Assembly (NCBI RefSeq): GCF_012027425.1
Contig: NZ_SNUE01000003.1
Span: 62,001-126,000, forward strand
DNA from: Thermococcus sp. MV5
GTDB lineage: Archaea > Methanobacteriota_B > Thermococci > Thermococcales > Thermococcaceae
Direction of reading: 5' to 3'
Length of the DNA: 64,000 nucleotides
Every line of letters begins with the position of its first letter. Position 1 is the stretch's first letter. The notes below the pieces were generated by a model, which was not told where the DNA came from, did no database searches, and saw only the letters and a program-made list of their open reading frames with translations. Made by a program: the position numbers and the translations under genes. Below, in pieces: positions 11,549 to 12,797 of the stretch.

Positions 11549-12646
11549 TTAGAACTCTCTCAGAACTCGTTCTATCACAGGGTCGGTTATTGAGTATAGC
11601 TTTTTTCCATCTTTAAATTCACTTTTTATCCAGCTCATCTTCTCAAGGTTTTTGAGCAAAGAGGAAAACCGTGTGTTTGTTATTCTGCCGTCATGCGCTT
11701 CAAGATATCCTTTTATTTTCTCCCAGCGATTGAATCCTAAAGCTACAGCTTTTAAAATAAATGTGTATCTTCTGCTCCTCTTTTCTAGCTCTTTAATTTC
11801 TTCTAACATTGTTTGTTGTGCCTTTCTCATAGTGAGTTCTAATGCCTTCTTGGAGTCTTTTGTGTGGAGATAGTGAAATCCATATTCAACCAACCACCCT
11901 GGAATTCCATCCAAGACATCAACTGCTCTCTCCAACTCCCATTCTCTCACTTTTAAGTTGACCTCATTGAATCCTCTCTTAAGAAACTCAAGGGACTTTT
12001 CTCTTGTAAATGGTGTTATGGTAATTTCATTATATATTCTCCCGAAAAGAAGCGCTTCGTGTTTTTCAAACCCTAAAAAGTCATGTAAGAGGCCAATCTC
12101 CGAACCAGTAAAAGCAAAGTGTATTCTAGGCAGATTATCATAGGCATATGCCACCAAAGCTAAGAATTCTTTACCTCCTTTTGTACCATAGAACCGTAGA
12201 TATTGAGCCTCATCGAAAGCAAGCACAATAGTTTTGCCTTTCTCTTCTCCAAACTTATTGAGCTTTTCAAGGATTTCCACCAGATTTTGCTCCTTAAATG
12301 AAAATTCAAATCCTTTTACTGATACTTTTGATATGTTAAGATATGAGAGTAGGGGCTTTAGAATCTTTGGTTTTAGATTCAATAGTGCATTTCCAAGCTC
12401 TCGTTTGAGTTCATCTTTTGTGATCCATCCTCCCACATTTGTGTACAGCTTTCTGGCATCAATATAAATTCCAACTGCGTTGCTCTCATTAAGTGCGACT
12501 TTTAAAACAGAGGACTTACCGACTCGTCTAATTCCGAGGATTAAGGTTATGGGATAGTTTTCAATTGATTTAATTACTTCAGTTATCTCTTTTTCTCTAT
12601 CAAAAATTTCCTCTCTTCGTGTTTTAGGCCGTGGCTCAAATAGCAT
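11549..12646 (-). CDS. Archaeal AAA+ ATPase with C-terminal winged helix
   Basis: Member of the archaeal ATPase family (AAA+/STAND-like) expanded in Thermococcales; function unknown. The 365 residues begin MLFEPRPKTRREEIFDREKE, then Walker A GIRRVGKSSVL (about 38-48), Walker B IVLAFDEAQYL (about 143-153), sensor segment HFAFTGSEIGLL (about 176-187) and a C-terminal winged-helix region with RFSSLLKNLEKMSWI. ATG 12646 is the likely start because the tandem palindrome at 12649-12683 lies directly before it; the longer frame to 12703 would read through that element. It interrupts the purine cluster but has no evident link to it. Confidence 0.85.
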   Translation of the reverse strand: MLFEPRPKTRREEIFDREKEITEVIKSIENYPITLILGIRRVGKSSVLKVALNESNAVGIYIDARKLYTNVGGWITKDELKRELGNALLNLKPKILKPLLSYLNISKVSVKGFEFSFKEQNLVEILEKLNKFGEEKGKTIVLAFDEAQYLRFYGTKGGKEFLALVAYAYDNLPRIHFAFTGSEIGLLHDFLGFEKHEALLFGRIYNEITITPFTREKSLEFLKRGFNEVNLKVREWELERAVDVLDGIPGWLVEYGFHYLHTKDSKKALELTMRKAQQTMLEEIKELEKRSRRYTFILKAVALGFNRWEKIKGYLEAHDGRITNTRFSSLLKNLEKMSWIKSEFKDGKKLYSITDPVIERVLREF

Positions 12647-12648
12647 AT

Positions 12649-12683
12649 GTATCGCCCCCGATACTAAGTATCGCCCCCGATAC
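12649..12683. promoter_or_regulatory. Tandem 16-bp palindromes upstream of the AAA+ ATPase gene
   Basis: Two identical copies of GTATCGGGGGCGATAC (minus-strand reading) lie at 12649-12664 and 12668-12683, separated by 3 bp. Each is itself an inverted repeat GTATCG/CGATAC around GGGG. The pair sits between a TTATAA box (about 12684-12689) and the ATG, covering the transcription start and supplying the GGGGG ribosome binding site. This is best read as an operator for tight, perhaps autogenous, repression of the ATPase gene. Confidence 0.7.
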
Positions 12684-12694
12684 TTATAATTATT

Positions 12695-12716
12695 TTTAGA
12701 CATTAAAGTGTTTAAA
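12695..12716. promoter_or_regulatory. Candidate purine operator upstream of purM
   Basis: TTTAGACA-TTAAAG-TGTTTAAA has 8-bp arms with one mismatch and the 6-bp spacer shared by the pur operators, although one base is inserted in each arm relative to TTAACA-N6-TGTTAA. It lies about 45-50 bp upstream of the probable purM TATA (AATTTTTTAAAC, about 12758-12770) and beside the ATPase gene promoter, so ownership is less certain than at other sites. Confidence 0.45.
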
Positions 12717-12797
12717 TAATAAAAACAATTGTATTAAATCTACATTAACATGGCAAATTTTTTAAACTCTTTACCAGATCAAGTCTTGGTGATGTTC

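Follow-up and report, generated by a model that had tools for sequence, protein, structure and literature searches.

Tandem palindromes before ATPase_2 genes of Thermococcaceae as probable operators of autoregulated STAND ATPases

Background

The ATPase_2 (PF01637) proteins form a large archaeal family with two solved structures, for which no assigned function was found in the openly licensed PMC literature. Both structures belong to the same family as the protein treated here and match it over the full length: the Walker-type ATPase PAB2304 of P. abyssi (PDB 2QEN; E 8e-102, fold Z 43.0) and SSO1545 of S. solfataricus (PDB 2FNA; E 1e-57, fold Z 37.9), the latter reportedly the subject of a 2009 structure paper by Xu et al. 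For neither protein was a DNA target or operator found reported in openly licensed PMC papers, and none of the papers listed by full-text searches of that collection described palindromes, operators or DNA specificity for the family.

The third-best fold match is A. pernix ORC2 (Z 21.6), and the Orc1/Cdc6 entries 2qby and 2v1u, solved with DNA according to their titles, are also among the folds listed. Archaeal Orc1/Cdc6 proteins are AAA+ ATPases whose C-terminal winged helix binds DNA repeats, and the bound repeats lie near the protein's own gene; the ATPase_2 proteins differ in that each subfamily has its own half-site and in that the sites occupy the interval from TATA box to start codon. 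Matches at Z 18–21 include plant NLR resistosomes and CED-4, the likeness to these NLR/STAND proteins (CED-4, RPP1, NRC4) extending across the ATPase and winged-helix modules. To our knowledge no sequence-specific operators of NLRs have been described. An excerpt of PMC4599002 reports DNA binding and bending, and a resemblance to Cdc6/Orc1, for the potato NLR Rx1. The present protein is an ATPase of 365 aa that ends with the winged-helix region at residue 365, and Pfam shows no receptor repeats or effector domain.

Palindromic promoter operators are familiar from type II antitoxins, which are autoregulated repressors whose specificities differ between paralogues, and from the Thermococcales TrmBL1 motif (TATCACN5GTGATA). 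The present case differs from both in that the protein is an AAA+ ATPase and in that the palindrome of its class (class A, below) occurs at one locus per genome rather than in a regulon. Closest in composition is the mycobacterial STAND regulator IniR, in which, according to excerpts of PMC5760070, an ATPase module likened to SSO1545 is joined through a MalT-like middle to a separate C-terminal DNA-binding domain, and which binds and induces the iniBAC promoter of a different operon. In the present family the reading would be done by the winged helix within the ATPase core, and the gene regulated would be the ATPase's own. Autoregulation through palindromic operators is already known; a STAND ATPase family with subfamily-specific operators and a readable contact appears, as far as was found, to be new.

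The palindrome pair and its promoter

The window (the whole stretch of DNA analysed, 64,000 nt of Thermococcus sp. MV5) carries on its minus strand two copies of GTATCGGGGGCGATAC, at 12649–12664 and 12668–12683, separated by a 3-bp spacer TTA (12665–12667) and therefore repeated with a period of 19 bp. The copies are identical, as the preliminary description had stated. That description had also called them self-complementary, which applies to the two 6-bp arms of each dyad (GTATCG-GGGG-CGATAC) and fails for the GGGG centre, so that 12 of 16 bases pair. The distal dyad (12668–12683) is replaced in many orthologues by the perfect palindrome GTATCGGTACCGATAC, and the A of the spacer completes the half-site AGTATCG. 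A search of the window with up to 3 mismatches returned these two copies only, compared with a mean of 0.09 matches, and never two, in 100 shuffles of the window; the same two copies were the sole matches at up to 2 mismatches in the assembly (1.98 Mb, completeness about 96%).

The pair is situated, as had been proposed, between a TATA-like box and the start of an ATPase gene on the minus strand: TTATAA (12684–12689), identified as a TATA box by its sequence, abuts the distal copy, and the ATG at 12646 follows 2 nt after the proximal copy (12649–12664). The element thus occupies the place expected of the operator in an autoregulatory pair, between the TATA box and the start codon of the gene itself. 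The earlier suggestion that the copies supply the ribosome site is consistent with GGGGG (12655–12659) within the proximal dyad, a putative Shine–Dalgarno site by its position and by likeness to the GGDGRD motif given for T. onnurineus in an excerpt of PMC5316973.

A divergent gene, which we take to be AIR synthetase-like, starts at 12750 on the plus strand, 67 bp from the element (intervening span 12684–12749), and at this short distance repression could touch that gene as well. The upstream neighbour of the ATPase gene differs in other genera.

The ATPase

The gene (11549–12646, minus strand) encodes the 365-aa protein introduced above, which matched ATPase_2 (PF01637) at 78.4 bits against a cut-off of 33.2, with a PF21100 (MCM_C winged-helix) match at its C-terminus. 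Pfam gave ATPase/AAA, nSTAND and winged-helix matches only. The AlphaFold2 model (mean pLDDT 92.6) has the STAND/NLR arrangement of an NB-ARC-like core followed by a winged helix, in keeping with the full-length matches to 2qen, 2fna and NLR/CED-4. The winged helix (residues 293–353; 11588–11770), the putative DNA-binding domain, consists in the model of helices 293–302, 308–319 and 324–336 and strands 340–345 and 348–353. Its third helix (residues 324–336; 11639–11677) is the recognition helix by position and starts at Asn324.

NCBIfam gave no match to the ATPase, PHROGs gave weak matches only (best E 0.0029), and tblastn found no plasmid-borne relative among 72,556 plasmid records. Membership of a known defence system was considered and rejected, the PADLOC matches being weak and partial (best E 3.7e-07 over 47 residues).

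Tandem-dyad geometry at related genes

Starts of related genes were scanned for two dyads 19 bp apart. Among 157 distinct starts, nearly all from Thermococcaceae, with relatives chosen by hand across the identity range from match lists, 119 scored at least 14 of 18 with the tandem pair likewise placed; 12 of the 157 came from regions chosen for having the element, and without them the count was 107 of 145. No control reached 14, neither 785 base shuffles (maximum 12) nor 50 other ORF starts of the window (maximum 13). A single dyad scoring at least 7, such as CCCCCCACCAGTAACTGGTGGGGGG, was present in 24 of the 38 starts in which the scan found no tandem pair, in 20/785 shuffles and in 6/50 other ORF starts. 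When periods of 17–21 were allowed in a second scan, a clear element was found in 119 of 154 Thermococcaceae rows, with period 19 in 118 of them.

When the neighbourhood of the distal dyad's upstream edge, and no other part, was searched for a TATA-like 8-mer, 113 of 119 starts had one, ending at a median distance of 35 nt upstream of the start codon. At least four G among the central 6 nt were counted in 115/119 proximal dyads against 33/119 distal ones. For T. onnurineus an excerpt of PMC5316973 gives a distance of 20–30 nt from TATA box to transcription start and a median 5' UTR length of 12 nt. With the spacing observed here, these distances would place the distal dyad between the TATA box and the predicted transcription start, and the proximal dyad across the predicted transcription start and the Shine–Dalgarno site.

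In one locus (L053, contig JAMOPD010000068.1) four tandem copies of the 19-bp unit precede the ATPase start, in place of the two of its relatives.

Operator classes and ATPase subfamilies

Seven classes of half-site were distinguished, written from the outside in: AGTATCG (A, the gene at 11549–12646), AGTAAYG (B), ACTTAYG (C), ACTTACC (D), ACTTGYA (E), ACTTCTG (F) and ACTATCG/ACTACTG (G). On a FastTree phylogeny of 154 ATPases every class formed one group, some of these groups also containing unclassified rows (one in B, two in G), and the tree required 10 class changes against at least 94 in 200 label shuffles. Support for the class-A group was 0.144, although its two halves were well supported (0.972 and 1.0), and a second tree did not settle its position among B and C. 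The arm sequence is, on this comparison, specific to the ATPase subfamily, with the class-A grouping weakly supported. What is conserved is the tandem geometry together with a subfamily-specific half-site, so the motif is not common to all these ATPases. The proposal that the exact duplication is itself under selection had to be abandoned: relatives preserve the arms and the geometry alone, the centres of their two copies being mostly unlike, so the identity of the two copies here is incidental.

Only 3 of 155 within-genome ATPase pairs sampled shared a class, all of class G with different half-sites. This exclusion was not counted as evidence, because one-to-one orthology explains it equally. 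Three genomes of genus g2 (G013, G032 and G035) gave 14, 19 and 15 matches to this ATPase, several of which are fragmentary or interrupted by stop codons.

The strict class-A dyad GTATCGN4CGATAC was found in 34 of 101 genomes searched (30/61 Thermococcaceae and 4/40 other archaea). In each of the 30 Thermococcaceae genomes it occupied a single locus, and a regulon of the 16-mer, which had also been considered, was not seen. A search of relatives for the motif had been suggested as a check on whether all hits precede ATPases of one subfamily. The dyad precedes a subfamily-A ATPase at 26 of the 30 loci, the gene appearing broken in four of these (G001, G010, G022, G055); no ATPase was found adjoining the remaining four (G023, G033, G047, G051).

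Covariation of residue 324 with half-site base 2

The second base of the half-site follows residue 324 of the ATPase. With Asp or Glu at 324 (90 rows) base 2 was C in 89, with Asn, Lys or Arg (47 rows) it was G in 46, and with Ser or Thr (7 rows) it was C in three, G in three and T in one. This table comprised the 144 rows with a usable half-site; 5 of 149 clear-element rows had been dropped for too few A.T half-sites, and row L254 was left out because its upstream DNA was too short. Two rows depart from the rule: L253, with half-sites that mix A and C, and L070, which the program read in the wrong register. By eye, three of the dropped rows (L149, L152, L153) have G with Asn or Lys, fitting the rule, and in the other two (L278, L217) the half-sites had been read in the wrong register. 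Acidic residues facing C, and Lys or Asn facing G, are chemically sensible contacts.

To take account of descent, a maximum-likelihood tree of 82 rows was built without the recognition-helix columns. Residue and base agreed in 73 of 73 testable rows (9 were not testable), both traits changed six times, and all five supported independent pairs changed in the same direction, as did all six when unsupported branches were counted. Five pairs correspond to a sign-test p of 0.0625, so the independent-pair test alone is not decisive. Omission of a doubtful row (L192) left the counts of changes and pairs unaltered; omission of three long-branch rows left 5 changes and 4 pairs, all in the same direction (sign test p 0.125).

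In a scan in which whole 60%-identity groups were left out (21 groups) and D/E and K/R were merged in every column, residue 324 ranked first among 365 columns as a predictor of base 2, with an accuracy of 0.89 against a baseline of 0.61 and 0.80 for the next column. The covariation of a specificity residue with the operator is thus found at one base. Bases 4–6 were not best predicted by recognition-helix columns in the same scan, and the class-specific columns ranked by mutual information showed no concentration in the winged helix. An impression gained by eye that residue 323 tracks bases 4–5 was discarded, the leave-group-out scan ranking 323 125th and 9th. Natural swaps were noted by eye: PNSR with AGTAAY against PDSR with ACTAAC, and, in a clade of 27–28% identity, ISEDAL with ACTTCGG against ISKDTL with AGTTCGG.

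A prediction was set down in advance, and the family named in it yielded no new full-length gene. The rule was then applied by eye to 20 further regions. The genes with four half-sites agreed in 6 of 6 cases (L321, L322, L324, L325, L327, L330), the helix being nearly the same as that of a gene already used in four of them. Genes with a single dyad lay outside the stated rule of selection; four agreed (L329, L331, L332, L333), two disagreed (L336, L337) and one could not be scored (L328). The two misses are near-identical distant genes with Glu at 324 but AGTGATG as half-site. The other seven regions gave no test (other residues or a gap at 324 in L334, L335, L338 and L339; no helix in L323; partial genes in L326 and L340).

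Elements at 3' ends and elements without an ATPase

Some genes of classes C, D and E (for example L171, L164 and L109) carry the same subfamily-specific dyads at the 3' end, touching, overlapping or near the stop codon, and in several genes these copies are again paired with period 19. At a threshold of 13 of 14 or better, 3' dyads were present in 22 of 143 genes examined, all in classes C, D and E, and in none of 572 windows inside genes or 572 shuffles. Classes A (0/24), B, F and G and the rows from other archaea had no 3' copies. Repeats at both ends, as expected of an insertion sequence or transposon, are accordingly absent from class A and present in part of classes C, D and E.

The four class-A elements that lack an adjoining ATPase all adjoin argS (L081 in G023, L082 in G047, L083 in G051 and L084 in G033); the last has one dyad only. 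Both dyads are intact in two genomes that share the same junction. The same argS end follows 15 of 24 class-A genes, which looks vertical. The class-C dyad was found in 24 of 101 genomes, including second sites in G045 and G047, and some of its matches lie away from ATPase starts; among the loci examined these include 3' copies and elements lacking an intact ATPase (L298, L306, L314 and L316), of which L298 looks by eye like a remnant. Single class-C dyads in three loci without an ATPase (L297, L305, L312) are probably due to chance. In G003 and G006 a single class-C element, made up of one complete dyad and a portion of another, lies without an ATPase between flanks that carry one elsewhere. 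Recombination between the end elements, or simple gene loss, would explain the orphan elements of classes A and C; a mobile unit is the bolder reading.

Probable autoregulation and its alternatives

The tandem palindromes very probably serve as operator to a DNA-binding ATPase that is sequence-specific and regulates its own gene. The comparison of relatives shows the position, the geometry, the specificity for the subfamily and the coupled change of residue 324 with base 2, and a family of NLR/Orc1-like STAND ATPases that repress their own genes is the most likely reading of them. The preliminary description had called for a dedicated regulator or autoregulation; since an operator base changes with the ATPase's own recognition-helix residue, autoregulation is favoured over a separate regulator. 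The ATPase's own C-terminal winged helix would read the half-site AGTATCG by direct binding. Four half-sites in alternating orientation, about 9.5 bp apart, fill the space from TATA box to start codon and would be occupied by four winged helices of an ATPase oligomer, probably with one dimer per dyad. The bound protein would then cover the transcription start region and the Shine–Dalgarno site, blocking initiation and shutting off its own gene, an effect more readily pictured as repression than as activation, and the nucleotide state (ATP) or a ligand might release it. Because half-sites differ from subfamily to subfamily, cross-regulation between paralogues of one cell would be avoided. Against autoregulation, four class-A elements and several of class C have been retained where no intact ATPase lies directly next to them.

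If these pairings are operators, they give the ATPase_2 family one testable activity, sequence-specific DNA binding by a STAND winged helix, and the residue-to-base rule at 324 could be checked by single substitutions. The fold is common to Orc1/Cdc6 and NLR receptors, so such binding bears on whether the NLR winged helix descends from a DNA-binding domain. The many distinct ATPase–operator pairs would also be a source of candidate thermophile repressors. Genes with an operator of their own may occur more widely in the PF01637 superfamily.

A wider and rather unlikely proposal is that these are self-addressing genes, encoding NLR/Orc1-like ATPases whose main high-affinity sites are at their own gene and whose specificities have been driven apart. 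Some subfamilies would have sites at both gene ends, the ATPase bridging 5' and 3' sites and treating the whole gene as one unit, which it would silence in a loop, excise or replicate locally, and divergence would keep copies from interfering. Such a gene would amount to a selfish or defence cassette of minimal size and would be an extant intermediate that links ATPases binding at origins to the immune switches of NLR type.

Archaeal promoters are commonly under separate regulators, and some of the elements persist without an intact ATPase adjoining, as would be expected if a repressor or activator encoded elsewhere bound each operator and the ATPase were merely its target. We regard this as decidedly unlikely: one dedicated, unlinked regulator would be needed for each subfamily, each inherited with its ATPase group, the coupling of an operator base to the recognition helix would go unexplained, and none of the 30 Thermococcaceae genomes with the class-A dyad offers such a regulator a second locus.

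The elements might instead serve chiefly to mark the ends of a mobile or replicon-like unit of one gene that the ATPase recognises, with transcription control secondary. The 3' dyads of classes C, D and E, the single class-C elements of G003 and G006 and the frequency of broken and missing ATPase copies speak for such a unit, as does the fold comparison, in which Orc2 and NLRs come nearest outside the family and TnsC appears further down. However, the 3' copies are confined to those three classes, Pfam finds no transposase or recombinase domain in the ATPase, ordinary recombination between two copies can leave single elements, and the shared argS end of class A speaks for vertical descent; we consider this reading very unlikely.

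That the palindromes act in RNA, as a leader hairpin hiding the Shine–Dalgarno site, is scarcely credible, even though the proximal copy folds (6-bp stem, four of the five Gs in the loop, -7.5 kcal/mol, z -2.48) and both arms change together between subfamilies, because the TATA spacing and the 5' UTR lengths in the excerpt of PMC5316973 imply that the distal copy should not be transcribed, because the coupling to a DNA-recognition residue is left unexplained, and because Rfam gave nothing above threshold (22.8 against 50 bits and 11.5 against 103.4 below it, neither overlapping the element).

Distant homologues

Homologues in distant archaeal groups were found by a profile of 32 sequences (A1). 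They are patchy, occurring in 16 of 26 genomes of one archaeal class (E up to 1e-50) and in at least 6 of 392 genomes of one large phylum (E up to 1e-55; at most 5 candidates scored per genome). Outside Thermococcaceae, 29 of 40 starts had a clear element of four half-sites directly before the start codon, and with a divergent Thermococcaceae gene (L246) added the count was 30 of 41, with periods of 17–20. On this evidence the tandem-dyad design recurs in distant archaea.

Other, distant ATPase_2 genes of the same genome as the window (L229, L235, L236, L239) have palindromes just before the start by eye, among them a tandem ATTCA-N5-TGAAT in L235 and TATAGTTTTATGCATAAAACTATA in L236.
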